From positions 856,501 through 920,500 of the forward strand of contig JAXBDG010000012.1 in assembly GCA_036320915.1 (NCBI GenBank): 64,000 nt of DNA, in the 5' to 3' direction. Positions 49,760 to 59,070 of this stretch are shown in pieces (position 1 is the stretch's first letter; each line of letters opens with the position of its first letter). Under the pieces are notes generated by a model. It did no database searches. It had not been told where the DNA came from and saw only the letters and a list, made by a program, of their open reading frames with translations. The translations under genes were made by a program, and so were the position numbers. This DNA is from Linnemannia elongata (lineage: Eukaryota > Mortierellomycota > Mortierellomycetes > Mortierellales > Mortierellaceae).

Positions 49760-50130
49760 CATTCATCCTAATTGAATGCCTTGTCCAATGTCCAAATATG
49801 GCAGTGTCCATGTGACAATCTTTAACAGAGCGGAGTTGTGTAACAGTTGGGCAGCTGGAACTAATTGACGTACAGCTAGTTCAAGGAAATGATGGCATGT
49901 GATGTGATTATTGGCCGGCGTGTCAAAGTGAACAATGGTGAGATCAAGTATGAATGTAAGTGTGAGTTTGATTGATGGGAAGTGAGAAGTGAGATGAGCA
50001 ACAATAAGAATACTGATCGACTCCACTTTACGAGGCCATGATTCAGGGACAAAAAATAGCTTTTGCGAGTCTTAAATCTTATACGTCACATTTCACTTAA
50101 AGGAAGCGCCACCAAGTTTGTTTCCCAGTA
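49760..50130. other. Intergenic DNA, no gene supported
   Basis: A minus-strand frame of 87 codons (50026-49763) shows no domain. Poly-A at 49633-49650 lies just upstream of the phosphatase ATG. Confidence 0.4.
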
Positions 50131-50133
50131 ACA

Positions 50134-51822
50134 TCATTTATTGAACGAGTTTTGTAGTTGATCCACCAAGGTCTTGGAGGAGGCCACTGCAGCTTGTAGG
50201 TCCTCCAAACTGCATATCTTTGACTTTTTTTTTATGAGCTCAACAATCATGCGCCCATTGTTAAAAAGTTCTTTTTCTACATCCTCAAAGTCTCTCTTCC
50301 TCTGCTTCTTCCGCCGATGCCTTTCTTCTTTCACCCTCCTGGCCCTCTCGTATTCGAGTTGGGTGTAAACTTGTGGGCTGAGCAATGCTAGCTGGTCTCT
50401 GAGAGAGTCTTGCTCGAAGATATCGGTGTTGCTGTCCATGTTGTTGTTGGTGTCGTCGTTGGCGTTGTCGCTGTCGTTGAGACCATCGTTGTGGTCGTCT
50501 GTCCGGGCCTCGATGGCATCGGCCGACACAGACGGGCGAATAAAGCGGCTGAGCCATAGGTCATGAATAACACGTTCGGCAAGAAAAAGGTGCTTGCAAG
50601 GAAGAGGTCTGCGTCTGGTGAAGTCGGGGCATGAACATGAGAGAAGCTGCCTGGATCTAGCGACGACAGCAAGAGTATAATACGTATCTGAAGTATCGGG
50701 GTCTAATGACTGCATGGAGATCTACTCGAGAAATGGAGGATAAATAAATCCCATTGTGAGTGACATTTGGCCAAAGCAGGCGAACTCAGAACGGTACTCG
50801 ACCGCATCATGGGTGAACAAGCCATACCCGCAAGCGTCCATCATGGCAGGGTTGGTCTTTGTTGTAGTTAATCTTGCGCTGTGCCTCATCGAACGAAACC
50901 TTGTCTGCCTTCTGTTTCCCCTCATCATCCCCTTTCCTCCAGGGTATGGGCTGGAAGCCTCTCTTAGTCTTGAGATATGCGAATTGAAATTCTCTGTCTA
51001 CTCGGTCTTGCAGTATATAAACAAGCCGATCGATACGGAGATTCCGATCGCCATCAAGATGATCGTCTGTAGAGCGCTTGTCGAACATGATTGGTGTTGA
51101 TGGAATAGATTGCCAGACACAGCTCCTTTGGAACAACAATGGGGCGCCTCCTCCATCTACATGGTATGAATAAAGGCATCGGATTTAGAAGTTAACAAAA
51201 GAAATAAGCTGTTTAAACCGTGTCCGGAAACAGGATAAAAGTCAACACTCCTACCGCTTGCAGGGTCTGTTCATCGGGTATGACCCTACTCGACAGGGAG
51301 CACCAATCATGACCCTGATCCACCATACGCCGAACCCACTCGCGCTCGTTCCGAGCAAGCAGCAACTGTGCGCGTTCGTCATCATGATTGTGCTTCCACA
51401 TGTACCGGACCACTACCTTGTCCTCCTCCCCAACGGGTTGTGCCATGAAAATCCGTGCCTTGCAGCAATGACCCACTGACTCGCGTGGGAGAGAAACAAC
51501 TTTTTCTTTGCGGTGGCGACGGTAGGCAACACGAGTCTCCAGGAGTACATGGCCCTTGTGCCTGCGACCTGCTCCCATGTTTTGAATGAAGAGGGGTATC
51601 CGGATCGTCTTTCTGGCTGTAGAAGGTGGAGTACTGATTGGGCCTATGCACCCACAAGCCAGTTTGCCGCTATCTCGCCCACCATGTGCGAACCTCGTCG
51701 CATGTAAAAGTGAATTCCTTGGTGTCGGGATCGTTGATTGAGAATTGTTGAGGTTTGATGTTATTCCTGGGGTCGTAATTGCGGTCGACAATCAGTACGT
51801 CCTTCAAGTCGAGAGCAGACAT
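50134..51822 (-). pseudogene. MULE (Mutator-like) transposase remnant lacking its DDE core
   Basis: From ATG 51822 (MSALDLKDVLIVDRNYD) the N-terminal part holds a WRKY-GCM1/FAR1-type zinc domain (VGHCCKARIFM then RYMWKHNHDD), split over at least two frames. A central piece near 51080-50930 (DRLVYILQDRVDREFQFAYLK) matches the stretch after the catalytic core. The C-terminal frame (50715-50134) has a SWIM zinc finger, CSCPDFTRRRPLPCKH, then a Lys/Arg-rich helix. The region between the HNHD motif and DRLVYIL, where the DDE domain should be, is missing, so it cannot transpose itself. It sits directly upstream of the SINE and the Fanzor fusion. Confidence 0.7.
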
Positions 51823-51837
51823 TAGATAGAGTATTTG

Positions 51838-51853
51838 ACAGATGGGATGAGAT
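51838..51853. repeat. 16-bp target-site duplication, left
   Basis: ACAGATGGGATGAGAT, repeated exactly at 52269-52284; it flanks the SINE. Confidence 0.9.
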
Positions 51854-52268
51854 TTTTTTTTTTTGTTTGTAAATTATTTATTTGGTCGTGGGTGTGCGTC
51901 GCATAAACAATTGCTTGACTACTCTACAAGCCTCCACCAATCCTTGGCTCATACTATTATTCGAATCGCCTTGCTTTAAGAAGACAATAATAAGGGGTTA
52001 GTACAAAGAGAATATACCGTCTCGTGACTCGGTTCGCCGGGTGAGCCTTCTACCCCGCTGCTTTTCCGCAAGAACACGCGGCCCCGCTACGGAGGGAGTT
52101 TCATTTTCGGTCGGTCCGCTGGGGGAAACTGTCAAAAACCTCGAGGCCCGGTGTCTTTGCTTCAACCCCGAATTTGCACCCGAAGGGGATTGAACCCGGG
52201 AGCCCCTAGGACACCACAGGGGGAAGCTTCGCCGCTCCTTCCACAAAGCTAAGCAGGCTTACCAGCCT
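51854..52268 (-). mobile_element. tRNA-headed SINE, 415 bp
   Basis: On the minus strand it begins next to the right-hand duplication with a tRNA-like head: A-box-like TTAGCTTTGTGG (52241-52252) and B-box GGGTTCAATCC (52187-52197), i.e. an internal pol III promoter. A ~250-bp GC-rich body follows, with a poly-A tail (plus-strand T run at 51852-51864). Exact 16-bp duplications border both ends, the mark of LINE-driven integration. Confidence 0.88.
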
Positions 52269-52284
52269 ACAGATGGGATGAGAT
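52269..52284. repeat. 16-bp target-site duplication, right
   Basis: ACAGATGGGATGAGAT, the partner of 51838-51853. It lies 119 bp before the ATG of the XPG-Fanzor gene. Confidence 0.9.
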
Positions 52285-52402
52285 AGAGCTGTGCTTGTGG
52301 CCATTGAGCACGTGACCAGGAGAATAGGTCGCAAAGCTATATTTTTTCCGTGAGTACAACGATGCTCGTTTCTTTGTTCCACATCACCATCTACATGACT
52401 CC

Positions 52403-55400
52403 TTGAACACAATGGGCTTCAAGTACGCGTGGCAACTACTGCGCGATAAAAAGCTTGTCCCCGATTCCCAAGACAAGGTCTCACTCCTTTCGACCGTCTC
52501 CAAGATCCGCGTTGACGTCTGTTCCACTCATAACACTCCCATTCGATACTATTACGGCAATCCCACCGACCTGTATGCGGCACATGGCAAGCTGGAGCAG
52601 TGGCTCCTCAAAATTGGCGACAAAGAGAAGGTACGCTTCTACATTGACGGCTTGCCAGCAGCGGAGAAGGTTAAAACGCACACCAACCGTCACCAAAGCC
52701 GCCAGAAGGCCCTGGTCAAGGCCTCTACCGCTATCTCCAGCCTCGAATCGCGCCTTGCCGAAGGAAAGCGCATTCGTAAACTCCACATCACCGGCGCCCA
52801 CAACCCCTTGCGGCAGGCATTCCATTGGTCGCTCGAGGACCGCATGTCGTTTGTCGAGTACATGGCCAACAAAGGATACGACATCATACTTTGCCCGACC
52901 GAGTCAGATGTTCTCATTGCCGCGGAGCGCCATCCTGACGACGCAGTCATTTCGTGCGACAGCGACCTTTTATTTTACAAGACCGTGCCCGTCGTTTGGC
53001 GTCCTGTAGGCTCCTATAAGGCTTGACGGTTTGTTCCATTCGAGAAAAATGCCGTTCTTGGAGTCCTCAGTCTGTCATCAACGCAGCTGACTGCCCTTGC
53101 CATTGTCAGTGGTAATGACTATGTCTCCAATATACCCCACCTCGCCATCGCCTCCAATCGCGGGACTCTCAACAACTTGGATGGAGGTAAGTAAAAACAA
53201 ATTTTTTACTGATATCTCTTTCTTGCCATCAATTGTGATTTTTGTACTCAGATCCTTTTTTTTCTTTCTTCTCTGTCTCTGTAGATGAGATGTCTGTCAT
53301 ACGACAATATCTTGCTCACCCGCATGTCAAACGACGGACAGATCAGGAAGGCGACAAGTGGTCCGAGAAGTCCTATGCTGATGCGATCAAAGTCTTTGTC
53401 AGGATGCAGCAGAGTATCTCGTCTGATTCCTCGCCAGCATCCTCGGCAGCATCGAACGATTCTGTCGCCCCGGAGGACCCAACCAAGGTCACCTCGGAGG
53501 ACTCGGCCCAAGACGCCTCTTTGTCCTACTCGTTCCTGCGTGAGCGTATGGATCGCTTCATGAATGCCTTCGATGTCTTCAAGACAAACGCGTACGAGGC
53601 CCGGGTCGCCAAAAGGTATTAAACTTCCCACCCCTTTTAACAGGCCGCGATTGCAATTGACAGGAGATAATGAATGAATGAATGAATTTCTTTAAGCACC
53701 ATGCTCATCTACTTTGTTCCCTTTTCCTCAATAGGGTTGCAAGTGATGCTCAATCGGAACCAGAAGCAGAGACCAAGATAATGAATCCGTTCGCCACTAT
53801 CGACAAACAGAATCCTGCCAATGCCCACCAGTATCGACCCCGCTTCAGCCCCAAAGTCCGATTTGAGCCGTCCAAGGAACAGTCTGCACCACCAATCTCA
53901 ATGCCGTACATACTCAAGCCTTGGAAGGAGCCACCAAAGAAGCCAAGCCTGTCAGAACCTTCAAAGAAGAAGCCTGCTGCGGCCATCAAGAATGAGATCA
54001 GTGAGGACAACCGCTTTGGACGCAAGGAGATGATGAATGCTCTATGCTTCGAGCACCCAATAGTCACTCTGGACCTGGATCGCCTATCCAGCAATGTCCA
54101 TGCCGCCGTCGAGAACGACCCACTCTCCAAAGTGATCCTCGAGTGCATTCGTGGTGCAGTCCGGGTGGCTTGCGACTCCAAGCGACATTGTCAGATGCTC
54201 ATTGGTCTGTATCTGGAGGACCTCTTCTATCCTCCACCTACACCTGGAGCTCCTCGACCTGCAGTACCTGTGGCCGTAATCAGCCAGCAAGAACAAGCTA
54301 TTCTCGATAATCTGTGCCCTCGGCTCTCGTCCAGTGAAATGAACGACGACAATAGCAATGTCAGCTCTGCAGGGGACGGACAAGATGATGGATCCAACGC
54401 GCGCTTCATCCACTCATTCCTCACCTTCCTGTACTCGGGCAACTTGCCTAGCAAGGGTAAAGTCGAGTCAACTGTCAACACCTTCATTGGTCGTCTACAA
54501 GAGATGGGGCACCTGGAGAAGTTACAGGTGGCCAAAGCGGATATGGTCAAGAGTGTCAAGGAGTACACGCCGAGTTTTGTGGTTCGATCGGTCGCATCGC
54601 AGCTGTCGGCTGAGTTGAAGAGGCACTACAAACACGGAGCCAAAGTGGTATCGGAAAAGGTAACGCGCCGTCTTTGTCCTTTATTATTTTTCGTTCTTGT
54701 CATCCTATGGACGACAAATTTTAACTCGATCGCTCGTTTTCCATGTATTGTCATAGGTTCAAACGATGATTAAGAAGAAACAGTTGACTGCCGACAAAGC
54801 TGTTGATTTGACAGTAAAGACGCCAGCGATCCAGCTTTTTGTGCGAGCAAATGCCACAGCCGGCCGGCCTTGGGGTCTTTCGCCCCTGTCATCCGTGGAG
54901 AATGGATACATGACATTCAGCGAGATCGAAATGGCGGCGTTTTTGCACAAGCGGGCCGAGCTGCACCCCACCCTCAAGAAGCTCATCGGCTGCAAGGACG
55001 AGCGGCGACTGTCGCAGGCGGACGTGATCCAGGACTGGCTACCGTTTCAAACACCAGGTGTGCTGATCCAGCGCCTCATTGCCCCCGTCGACCCAAGGAC
55101 CCCTGATGGCGATCGCCTGCGTGGGCGACAGAAGAAGGAGGCCGGTATCGCGGCAGCCGTCAGGATTGTCGAGCCTGAGGAGTTACGTACCCATATAAAC
55201 ACCCTTCGCGGCGACGGTTTCGATCCCCGGACCTACCAGGAAAAGGGTTATTTCCTGTACGGATCCATAAAGACGGATGGACATCAGCTGCAGCTCCTTG
55301 CATACTAAGTTCGAGAGTTGAACTCGGTCAAGTTCAAGCGCTACAGGAACGATGTACTGCCATATCGTCTGCTTACCATCACCGCTGGCACGAGCGACTT

Positions 55401-56781
55401 CTTGACGGAAGTACGCAACGTGTTCAAGACCACGGCCGATGTCGAGCGCCTCCTTGGCTGCACCCGCGACGAAACTGATAAGGTGTCGTACCTGTGCATA
55501 GACCTTGGCCAGACTTTCGTCGCCGGCGCATATGCACTCCTTCCACAGGACAAGACCCCCAAGATCGGAAAGCGACGGCGTCACCGGAAGCAAAAGAAGC
55601 GTGGCAGCCGTGGCCGTCGTAATAGAGGCAGCGGTAAAGGCAAGAAGGAGAACGTCTGTCGAGTCCAAGGCGAGCGACACATTAACTTGGCTGCCAAGCA
55701 GAAAGCTGTTGCGCGACCCACTCTCCGACACAGATCTTGGATGGATAAGCACAAGATGGCCGACCTGAAGATGACTTCCAGCCCGTCGACCACCAACACC
55801 GAGTCAGCAGCACCACCAACGATCAGCCAGCCCTCAACCAGCAGCACGGAAGCAGCGACATCTGAGTCCCTCTCCATCCGCACGATCGAGTCGTCCCTCC
55901 CACCTCTTCGCGGTGCCAACGCCAGTTTCGTGGACCACATAGCGTGCCGCAAGGCAAACAAGTCCCATCTGGACACGTTTTACAACGGCAAAAAGTTCAG
56001 GCATAAGAAGTACAAGTGGATGGCAAAGAAGGCTCGGCAGCGCGAGTTTGAACGCCTGGCGGACTCGTTGCTGCGAATGGTCGGCGGCTCCATTGGCGAG
56101 AAGAAGAAGGATGACGCTAAGGTCGCTATAGGGATCGGCATGGGCCGCTTCACCTCTACATCTGGACTGTCAAGCTTGCATGGGACGTTCGAATCTTACT
56201 TTATCCAGAAGGTAACCATTCGTTTGTCTATTGTTTGTAGATAGTAGCGTCCCAATCTAACTACTGCTGTTAACTGACATGTCCCTCTTGCTCCTTGTTT
56301 TTTCATTGCGCAGGCCCGGTCGCTTGGGTACTTGGTCGTCGGAGTTAACAAATTTTACACGTCCAAAAAGTGTCCCACGTGCGAAAACTTTGTCGGCCAG
56401 GCAGGGAGCATCCGGCGCCTGTACTGCTACCATTGCAAGAAGTACATACACCGAGACGTGATGGCAGGTCATAACATGGTCAACATCGTCCGGAGCCATG
56501 TCGAGCAGCAGCAGCGGCCATTCTATCTGCATCCGGTCAACAAGGACGGCCACTACCCCTGGCTGGAGCATGGATGCGAGCCAGCGGCCCAACCCAAGGA
56601 TGCCCCAAGTTCGTTGGAACAAGCAAGCAGCATTGGTGGTCGTGCTGGTCGTGCTGGTCGCAAACGGCGGGCAGAGGAGGATGACAATACCGAAAAGGAG
56701 AGGGGTAGCAAGTGCACCAAGACAACCATGGCTAAGGGCAAGGCGACGACCACGAAGGGCAAGGCGGCGACGGCCAGGTAA
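52403..56781 (+). pseudogene. XPG/FEN1-like PIN nuclease fused to Fanzor (TnpB-like) nuclease; two nonsense codons
   Basis: Five exons (52403-53186, 53285-53615, 53735-54659, 54757-56211, 56314-56781; introns 98, 119, 97 and 102 nt) keep one frame over about 1,320 codons. Exon 1 is XPG-like: an MG start, FYIDGLPAAEK, the acidic CPTESD and SCDSDLLFY (XPG-I), and ALAIVSGNDYVSNI (H3TH). Exons 2-3 are linker and helices. Exons 4-5 are Fanzor: RuvC-I CIDLG (Asp codon 55501), a basic insert, a CPTC...CYHC zinc ribbon and RuvC-III HRDVMAGHN (Asp codon 56455), then RPFYLHP and PW. In-frame TGA at 53024-53026 (codon 208) and TAA at 55306-55308 (codon 864) break it. VGVNKFYTSKKC has Lys (56350-56352) where Fanzors usually have Glu. 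It is most likely a recently inactivated copy. Two separate genes remain possible but the phase-keeping introns argue against it. Confidence 0.85.
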
Positions 56782-56859
56782 ATAGCGACGAAACCCAAGA
56801 GCAAGGCAAATGCCATGCAGCTCAATAGCTAGATAGCTTTTTTCTTTCCATTCCTTTAT

Positions 56860-56965
56860 TTTGAGGTGTTCGCAAGCACCCTTGTCTACCTTCGGGTGGA
56901 TTTAGATAGCTGCGCAGGCCGAGCGGTTGCCCACTTCGGTGACCTCATCGTAGTCCGATGCGCGG
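56860..56965 (+). ncRNA. Candidate guide-RNA scaffold (omega-type RNA) 3' of Fanzor
   Basis: Within 100-160 nt of the Fanzor stop are three hairpins in a row: GGTGTT-CGCA-AGCACC (56865-56880), CTACC-TTCG-GGTGG (56886-56899) and CAC-TTCG-GTG (56932-56941). Two have UUCG tetraloops, and a fourth GC-rich stretch follows. Fanzor and TnpB guide RNAs typically derive from the 3' end/UTR of the nuclease gene. The structure is visible; the role is inferred. Confidence 0.45.
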
Positions 56966-57164
56966 ATGTCTTCGCTTATGGGTGGAGGACAATGGACGCC
57001 ATAATTCTCTTATTGGCCAAAGGATAGCACTTGTCTTTTAAATAAAAAAATTCGGCTCGCTTTTTGCTCAATCCTTTCCTTCTGCCAGTACTTTCATACA
57101 CACTCCAAGTTCCCTTGTCAACACACACTCTACACCAAGCCTTTTCAGCACATGTAATCTCAAA

Positions 57165-57968
57165 ATGGGGTGCCGATCACTTTGGAAATTTTTTGCAAAC
57201 AAAAAACACCAACCATCAATACGGTATCATCGACACTTGGCGAAAGGTCTACAGGAATGCCGCGTCAGGCACGCGTCGACAAACACGAATAACAAGGTCA
57301 GGGTGGACGTCATGGGCAGCATCTTCTCTACCATCCAATACGCGTACACGCATTGCTCTCGGGAGGCAGCCCATGCCCTGATCCACAAGCGACTGAAGAA
57401 GCTGGCTAATCCCCTCATCTCGGTACTCTACTTCGACGGCGACCCAACAACGGAAAAGGAATCCACTCATGACGAACGGGCAAAAGTCCGGCGTAAGGCT
57501 GAGGTGTTGGCTGACCAGAAGATCAACGAGTTTGAGGTGCGAATCAACAACGGGTAGAGAATACGGAAACAGCATTTTGTTGGGATCCAGAAGCAGCTCA
57601 GCAGGGCATTTCAGTGGAACAGCGAGGATCGTCTCTCCCTTATCGACTACCTGCGCGACCATCAGTGGATCGTCCAGCTATCGCCTTACGAGGCGGATGT
57701 CCACATCGCTGATGATTGCGCGCCGGGCGATATTGTCATCTCAGGCGACTCCGACCTCATAATCCACCCAACAGTGACTACAATCTGGCGGCCTATTTCG
57801 GGTAGTCGATTTCTGGAGTATATCGTGGACGAGGTCTTGGCAGTACTCGGTATTGGTCGGCCTCAATTGGTGACCCTAGGAGTCGTCTCTCACAACGATT
57901 ACAACAAGAATATCTATGGACTCGGATGTGCTACAAATTACAAGATCGTCAAGGACCTCCCCAAGTAA
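57165..57968 (+). pseudogene. XPG/FEN1-like PIN nuclease, first exon only
   Basis: MGCRSLWKFFANKK is the canonical XPG N-terminus. Then come YFDGDPTTEKE, SPYEADVHIA, ISGDSDLIIHPTV (XPG-I with the standard EAD) and LGVVSHNDYNKNI (H3TH). An in-frame TAG lies at 57555-57557; the frame otherwise stays open to 57968, ending LPK at an AA|GTAAGA donor-like site. That is where the homologous exon 1 at 52403 ends. Beyond it only satellite DNA is found. It is therefore a 5' piece of a second, quite diverged XPG or XPG-Fanzor gene. Confidence 0.8.
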
Positions 57969-57974
57969 GACTCC

Positions 57975-58720
57975 TAATCGAATCGAATAATTCGAGTTCG
58001 ATTCAATTCGAATGAATTTGAATCGAATTTGAGATAGGGTGGATTCGATTCGATTTGAATACTCCCCTACTCGATTCGATCCGAATGGTTCGAATGGTTC
58101 GAATGATTCGAGAGGTGCCCTTAATTCTGGTCAATCGAATTGTATTCCAACCATTTGATCAATTGATTCGAATGATTCGATTCGAATGCGGTTCGAATGG
58201 TTCGAGTGATTCGAGTGATTCGATTTGATTAGAGATCGATTTGATCTCAACAAGTTGGATTGAATGGTGTATGGTTTGAAATATATATTGTAGAAAAGAA
58301 AAAGTAAACTCTATAAGTTTAAGGAAACTCTTTGAACCAAGAGTTCAAAATAACCAGCTGTCGACGTGGCATTAATAATGATTCGAATGGTCCGAATGCT
58401 TCGATCACTTCGATTGAAACGAATGCTTCGATTGAAACGAATGCTTCGATTGAAACGAATGCTTCGATTGAAACGAATGCTTCGATTGAAACGAATGCTT
58501 CGATTGAAACGAATGCTTCGATTGTAACGAATGCTTCGATTGATACGAATGCTTCGATTACTTCGAATGCTTCAAATGATTCGAATGCTTCGATTGATTC
58601 GAATCGGATTCGAACCTGCAACTTCGATTGATTCGAACCTTCAGCTTCAATCGAATTCGAATCGGATTCAAGTTTACTTCATTCGAATCGAAATCGAAAT
58701 AGGCTAAATTTGATTCGATC
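57975..58720. repeat. ATTCGAATC-type satellite with an 18-bp core array
   Basis: Dense GATTCGAAT/TTCGAATGG motifs. At about 58405-58565, GAAACGAATGCTTCGATT repeats about seven to nine times. The unit is near-palindromic and has no stop codon in two frames, so both strands appear to encode repeat peptides (SIETNA / FVSIEA). The array truncates the XPG-like exon. Confidence 0.9.
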
Positions 58721-58738: not shown

Positions 58739-59070
58739 ATTCTTGACATTGTCATCCTTTGTCTAATAGCGCGTAAGTAGACATCCACTTGCTCGAATGC
58801 TGACCATGATGGCACAAAGTGAAGTGTTGGTGCTGGGACTAACGTGATTTTGCGCCTGTTTCTTGACATTGTCATCCTTTGTTTAATAGCGAGTAAGTAG
58901 TTATCCACTTGTTCGAATGCTGACCATGATGGAACACAGTGAAGTGTTGATGCAGGGTCTAACGTGATTTTGCCCTTGCTTCTTGACATTGTCATCCTTC
59001 GTCTCATAGATAGTAAGTAGATATCCATTTGCTCAAATGTTGACCATGATGTCTCGAAGTAAGGTGCTGA
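58739..59070. repeat. Three 120-bp tandem repeats
   Basis: TTCTTGACATTGTCATCCTT starts at 58740, 58860 and 58980, exactly 120 bp apart. Each unit also carries TGCTGACCATGATGG and AACGTGATTTTGC. The minus-strand frame reads as 40-residue repeats, probably non-coding. Confidence 0.9.

Follow-up and report, generated by a model that had tools for sequence, protein, structure and literature searches.

A predicted fusion of a FEN1/XPG-like nuclease with a Fanzor, carried by transposons of Linnemannia elongata

The Fanzor1 proteins SpuFz1, GtFz1 and PpFz1 (about 600-730 residues) and the FEN1/EXO1/XPG (Rad2) nucleases are the closest described relatives of the protein analysed here. The extra part of PpFz1 is, in the accessible portion of the article (PMC11423790), a RuvC insertion that binds cyclophilin. 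MuDR-like elements carrying Fanzor1 genes in Rhizopus, Phycomyces and Mucor have terminal repeats, 9-bp target duplications and mostly no transposase gene, and no nuclease fusion is described in the available sections of that paper (PMC3627910).

The fused proteins (about 1,200-1,360 aa) share with SpuFz1, GtFz1 and PpFz1 the predicted fold over residues 445-1122 of the model, the RuvC Asp, the Glu six residues before CxxC, the C4 ribbon, the RD motif and a setting in terminal-repeat transposons, but they are longer and begin with a FEN-type nuclease of about 300 residues, which the known Fanzor1 structures lack. This N-terminal part resembles FEN1, EXO1 and XPG in its predicted fold (residues 2-297), seven carboxylates, gateway Lys/Arg and H3TH region; unlike those enzymes it is fused to a Fanzor and transposon-borne, and its identity to solved members is about 15%. 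The Mortierellaceae elements resemble the MuDR-like ones in their terminal repeats, short duplications and, mostly, the lack of a transposase gene, whereas their duplications are 8 bp long and one group (group A) keeps the remains of a transposase gene.

Literature searches, outside which most subscription journals lay, returned no description of Fanzor with XPG, of Fanzor in Mortierella or of TNB with XPG. Articles on Fanzor with flap endonuclease or on TnpB with FEN1, and Fanzor papers searched for fusion terms, described no fusion of this kind in their accessible text. An earlier reading of the sequence alone knew of no characterised two-nuclease design. One paper mentions 'Fanzor flap endonuclease homologs' in virus contigs, without saying in the excerpt available whether these are fused; a survey of viral contigs gave 18 pattern matches, none of them confirmed.

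The window, i.e. the whole 64,000-nucleotide stretch of L. elongata DNA that was analysed (C4:856501-920500), carries on its forward strand (52412-56781) a gene of five exons that contains two in-frame stops; its four introns are GT-AG, in phases 1, 2, 0 and 0. The sequence-only reading had placed this gene at 52403..56781: its end and layout were right, but the ATG lies at 52412, and the interval is too narrow because the gene belongs to a transposon that spans about 50100-56970 and includes the transposase-gene remains. The features are as follows:

50092..50099, no strand: left target-site duplication TTCACTTA, after ACGTCAC plus 2 nt; 7/8 identical to 56971-56978, by eye
50100..56970, plus strand: degraded group A element, aligned with C2:447984-455911; its left terminus is missing and is present in the C2 copy
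50137..51873, minus strand: decayed MULE-like transposase gene, of which a SWIM piece (50137-50721) and N-terminal pieces (51216-51791, 51673-51873) are left
52412-53186, plus strand: exon 1, XPG/FEN-like nuclease; in-frame TGA at 53024-53026
53285-53615, plus strand: exon 2, end of the XPG-like half and beginning of the linker
53735-54659, plus strand: exon 3, linker, then start of the Fanzor half
54757-56211, plus strand: exon 4, Fanzor with RuvC-I (CIDLG); in-frame TAA at 55306-55308
56314-56781, plus strand: exon 5, zinc ribbon, RuvC-III and C-terminal tail; Lys at 56350-56352 replaces the RuvC Glu
56860..56970, plus strand: element right end, expected site of the omegaRNA scaffold; shared CACTTCGGTGAC core, no match to covariance model R1
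56971..56978, no strand: right target-site duplication TTCGCTTA
56980..57968, plus strand: truncated second element, L030 type (left terminal repeat 56980-57000, XPG exon 1 from 57165)

On re-reading, the motifs named earlier were confirmed: XPG-I (CPTESD, SCDSDLL) and H3TH (VSGNDYVSNI) in exon 1, RuvC-I in exon 4, and the zinc ribbon and RuvC-III in exon 5; the four introns do preserve phase. The claim of one gene joining an XPG/FEN1-like nuclease to a Fanzor held for the architecture, which recurs in other copies and in homologues, but the window copy itself is broken. Its stops fall at codons 205 (TGA) and 861 (TAA), and codon 1175 encodes Lys where the copy on contig C2 has Glu and relatives carry the RuvC Glu; because of these three changes the window copy was classed as a pseudogene. 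Pfam matched its TNB half at E 2.3e-10 and its XPG_I_2 region at E 0.079, under the cut-off of that family. The dN/dS ratios between the window and C2 copies (XPG 0.61, linker 0.24, middle 0.20, Fanzor 0.65, C-terminus 1.16) may fit a decaying copy.

For assessment of whether the halves form one gene, the L. elongata genome (51.1 Mb, 32 contigs) was searched by profile for the Fanzor TNB domain and with three queries for XPG-like exons. When all 54 TNB sites were paired against the 40 pooled XPG places, 35 had an XPG exon at most 7 kb away on the 5' side and in the same orientation. One pair was dropped (C32:2408823, 6.9 kb) because its XPG exon was already paired to a nearer TNB, and 34/54 sites were retained, with the XPG/FEN-like exon 2.9-4.3 kb 5'. 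Control pairing (other strand or downstream, within 7 kb) yielded 5 pairs, which were read as neighbouring or nested copies. As both halves recur together at 34/54 TNB sites, their pairing exceeds chance. From the 19 TNB sites without an XPG partner, L037, L038, L039 and the neighbour of L026 were inspected: L038 is a 3' fragment, and L039 keeps the linker and Fanzor exons with no upstream XPG exon of 60 aa or more.

Spliced models were built by hand for L009 and the window copy and by script for the remaining copies; L029-L032 were read as open frames only. An uninterrupted spliced frame with four introns (1,317-1,361 aa) was obtained for 12 of 21 copies (L009-L028 plus the window), the conservation of the introns being partly by construction, since the script imposed the phases and penalised stops. 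An unconstrained splice model, run on five copies, gave phases 1, 2, 0 and 0 for L010 only; one intron differed in L009, L017 and L025, and L021 gave no model. The copies were distributed as follows:

Open frame: L009-L014, L017, L019, L023, L024, L026 and L027
Broken: L015, L021, L022 and L025 (one stop each), the window copy (two) and L018 (three)
Otherwise not open: L020 and L028 (frame lost in the model) and L016 (no identifiable start)

The group D copy L027 was compared with L021, a group E copy with one stop: dN/dS was 0.13 for the XPG part, 0.27 for the linker, 0.28 for the middle, 0.17 for the Fanzor part and 0.18 for the C-terminus. As estimated from this pair, these ratios show purifying selection over the whole fused frame, linker included.

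Two protein searches gave 36 distinct homologues among the matches listed, all from genera of the Mortierellaceae; since such searches detect only relatives with short words in common, the fusion may be spread beyond this family. Both halves were sought in one predicted protein, as had been proposed from the sequence, and were present in 17 of the 36 matches listed (profile plus strict motif), from 14 named taxa in eight genera. The fused architecture is visible in databases, as P0018 is annotated with both Pfam domains. The other matches listed, many of them marked partial, had XPG only (10), the TNB motif only (7) or neither (2). For the intact C2 copy the deposited model is P0001, which differs from the fused frame: its start in exon 1 is out of frame, intron 1 is read through and the model terminates within intron 4.

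That the halves are two adjacent genes, joined only by annotation, would be compatible with P0001 and with these single-half proteins, but it is very improbable. Homologues do not always end or start between exons 1 and 4, as separate genes would: the 17 fused predictions come from 14 taxa, frames run open through all introns in 12/21 copies, and the linker is conserved (dN/dS 0.27). The fusion protein is almost certainly real.

The sequence-only reading had proposed structure prediction for an intact homologue. An AlphaFold model was consulted for one relative, and both families were matched: residues 2-297 by EXO1/FEN1, with EXO1 as the best match, and residues 445-1122 by Fanzor. Pfam (E <= 0.1) found XPG_I in 11/14 relatives and TNB in 14/14. 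In seven exon-1 sequences (36-41% identical to the first one), all seven carboxylates and both gateway basic residues were invariant; active-site residues were assigned by FEN1 numbering. The gateway Lys and Arg, at D+7 and D+14, were present in 20/20 models including the window. The RuvC Asp, the Glu six residues before CxxC, the C4 ribbon and RD did not vary among 14 aligned relatives; in L027 the RuvC-I Asp is retained within a motif that reads LDLD. The N-terminal half is probably an active FEN-type nuclease, and the Fanzor half probably performs RNA-guided cutting. XPG-like proteins without nuclease activity exist, and the H3TH motif reads NDQ instead of NDY in groups D and E, which would suit a DNA-binding or structural role for the N-terminal half; with its catalytic and gateway residues invariant, a non-catalytic half is nevertheless improbable.

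The fused genes lie in elements with defined ends. The C2 element of group A (7,928 bp, C2:447984-455911) has ATCGGACTACGAT inverted near its ends and is flanked on both sides by AATTGCGA, an exact 8-bp duplication; here too the upstream flank reads ACGTCAC plus 2 nt. The window copy has lost the left terminus and the transposase core and lies between the octamers TTCACTTA and TTCGCTTA. Group B elements (about 4.7 kb) are almost filled by the single gene and have 21-bp terminal repeats (5' GGGTGCAGGACAATGGACGCC, 3' GGCGCCAATTGTCCTGCAGCC). Some copies are nearly identical (L010/L011 and L013/L014, 99.9%). Target duplications in MULEs are 8-11 bp long. The elements share terminal inverted repeats and a duplication of such length with MULEs: exact 8-bp duplications were found in 10 of 16 two-ended copies (L010-L014, L017, L024, L026, L027 and L028), besides the C2 element; in the others the duplication was 9 bp (L021), matched at 7/8 (L030) or was not clear (L018, L020, L022 and L025).

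Upstream of the elements, TGACGTCAC was found at >=7/9 in 10/17 left flanks, all exactly 2 bp from the presumed duplication, and at >=6/9 in 14/17, 12 of these at 2 bp; 0.9% of random window 18-mers matched at >=7/9. The resulting tail of 6e-17 overstates the case, because the motif was derived from the same flanks and the copies are related; the fixed 2-bp spacing is the stronger point. The flanks of L033, L034 and the C2 element, outside the 17 counted, also show the motif.

The transposase core missing from the window is in part kept in the C2 copy, where the strand opposite the fused gene encodes IDSTHK, FMVDCAEAE with CDFHV, and NNWIESWH, which we take to be MULE-type motifs, and a SWIM finger; no open spliced frame was obtained by script for this gene. 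Pfam matches of the group A gene were all below cut-off (SWIM E 0.0015; MULE E 0.036 to 0.0088), and in the 724-aa homologue P0039 SWIM passed its cut-off while MULE (3.8e-4) fell below. In the genome, the SWIM piece was found solely beside the two group A copies. A genome search with the MULE profile PF10551 gave 24 matches, none at fused copies by coordinates, and it missed the group A gene, probably because this is split and diverged; a KDZ profile matched nothing, including the control sequences. No transposase was found in groups B-E, whose terminal repeats differ from those of group A; from the duplication length and the shared target motif, a MULE-like transposase may also move these groups.

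The right ends are candidate omegaRNA sources. In 11 right ends, from groups B-E and L029-L032, a long hairpin is predicted for the terminal 80-100 nt; its apex is YYCG-like, and its base or a closing stem mostly includes the terminal repeat (folding z against mononucleotide shuffles, -1.7 to -5.8). Because MAFFT visibly misaligned the helices of 150-base ends, pairs were counted on nine aligned pieces of 30-34 bases: 90% of cells pair, and the sole two-sided change is G-C to U-A, in four sequences. The covariation score was reached by 13/500 shuffles, and the number of pairs changed on both sides by 490/500. Covariance model R1, built from L010, L012, L017, L018 and L029, recovered L029 and each of the 11 copies in groups B and C; the only other copies hit were L030 (E 0.001) and, over a part, L021 (E 0.48). 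It did not match group A, L022-L028, L031 or L032, the window and L009 being among the copies missed, and there were also weak matches to this palindromic stretch on the opposite strand. Rfam gave nothing at gathering score over window positions 52000-58500. Published Fanzor1 right-end RNAs include the terminal repeat and the duplication, according to the accessible part of PMC10711439. Since the published duplication thus sits in the RNA scaffold, the flank motif is not favoured as guide-adjacent; with the duplication as scaffold, the upstream TGACGTCAC would be merely a transposase site.

The best explanation (probability about 0.6) is that a 5' nuclease of the FEN1/EXO1/XPG kind was added to the N-terminus of a Fanzor1-type RNA-guided nuclease, which spreads in Mortierellaceae DNA transposons. 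As far as sequence and predicted fold go, there is one spliced gene with both catalytic sets conserved, in mobile elements with a folded right end; we infer guided cutting, 5' nuclease activity and cooperation of the halves. Insertion, usually 2 bp downstream of TGACGTCAC, would be the work of a MULE-like transposase (encoded by group A; from elsewhere for B-E). The right end would give an omegaRNA, the scaffold of which takes in the terminal repeat, with the flanking DNA as guide. The Fanzor half would cut the matching empty site, on either the excised donor or a homologue that lacks the element. The FEN/EXO1-like half tethered to it would degrade or trim 5' ends or the displaced strand, and repair would then copy the element in from an occupied site.

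For TnpB, element retention through templated repair is established. Resection for such repair is favoured as the role of the FEN-type half because EXO1 is the best fold match and element retention relies on templated repair; it is a tentative assignment, somewhat short of an even chance. Its fullest form, a single-protein machine that steers guided breaks to homologous repair, by which the transposon is copied again to its old site or to the empty allele, and for which TGACGTCAC-NN is both transposase target and guide-adjacent motif, is on balance doubtful. The FEN-type half could instead serve transposition, trimming transposase-made flaps or ends at excision or during gap filling beside the 8-bp duplication and leaving copy retention to the Fanzor half: wherever ends were found, the fused gene lies inside elements with target duplications, and a MULE-like transposase gene adjoins it in group A. 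A joint task is nevertheless suggested by the physical fusion and the conserved linker, and non-fused Fanzor elements transpose without a FEN-type domain (PMC3627910, available sections), which makes this division of labour unlikely.

XPG and FEN1 cut junctions of single- and double-stranded DNA, and both are among the fold matches of the model, so that the FEN-type half might cut the displaced strand or bubble of the R-loop and the two nucleases jointly make the double-strand break. Both-strand cutting by characterised Fanzors uses the RuvC site alone. These enzymes do cut both strands (PMC10432273, accessible text), and joint cleavage is accordingly rather unlikely. Cleavage of the R-loop and the trimming of flaps during transposition both compete closely with cutting followed by resection.

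Transposon RNA-guided nucleases depend on the host repairing their cuts from a template, and the sequences suggest a repair-type nuclease joined to an RNA-guided cutter in eight genera, with both active sites conserved. The fusion offers a testable model for Fanzors that favour their own copying. Engineered Cas-exonuclease fusions exist, and the fused protein would be their natural counterpart. Experiments can draw on an element family with numerous near-identical copies, well-marked ends and a distinct target motif.

The truncated L030-type element next to the window copy has one stop and no Fanzor half paired to its XPG exon. Left ends without a fused gene (L033, L034 and L035) were set aside: they contain a hAT-like gene, a DDE gene and retroelement pieces and look like other insertions. 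Right-end 'ghost' copies were likewise discarded, as 12/12 matches in a genome-wide search with a group B right end were fused copies.

Deeply diverged XPG exons (~24-33% identical) were present in the Linnemannia elongata genome (G000) at C12:1106824, C12:1853636, C11:34808 and locus L036 (C9:871500-877500), in each case 3.1-4.3 kb 5' of a Fanzor TNB site; at L036, RuvC-I reads DPG. The XPG-Fanzor fusion appears to exist as several old lineages inside this single genome.

Six Fanzor TNB sites, all oriented inward, lie 6-12 kb from contig ends (C2:8289, C32:6152, C6:6338, C3:12111, C9:1447301 and C27:2931583), and may represent a subtelomeric Fanzor family. No XPG partner was detected for these six when the TNB sites of the genome were paired with XPG exons, and the zinc-ribbon exon is the sole recognisable part of the C6 locus (L037).

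The left end of the fused-gene elements was also found, at the usual target motif, ahead of transposase genes at two loci, which are apparently nested or chimeric elements:

C9:202400-207900 (L033), family left end, then a hAT-like transposase gene
C1:4500400-4505900 (L034), family left end, then a DDE transposase gene

On C31, the left flank of the L026 element (before 1848) resembles the right end of an older element copy. The target motif is similar to a stretch in the element's right end, and L026 looks to have inserted in the older copy's right end, at that copy's own TGACGTAA stretch.

In the window, 487 bp (51875-52361) lie between the fused gene and the relics of the transposase gene. 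The C2 copy has 118 bp at the corresponding place, with which this stretch did not align; it is probably a small insertion. Past the truncated second element, tandem arrays were found:

58377-58661, array with 10.6 copies of an 18-bp unit at 58408-58597
58740-59051, array with 2.6 copies of a 120-bp unit
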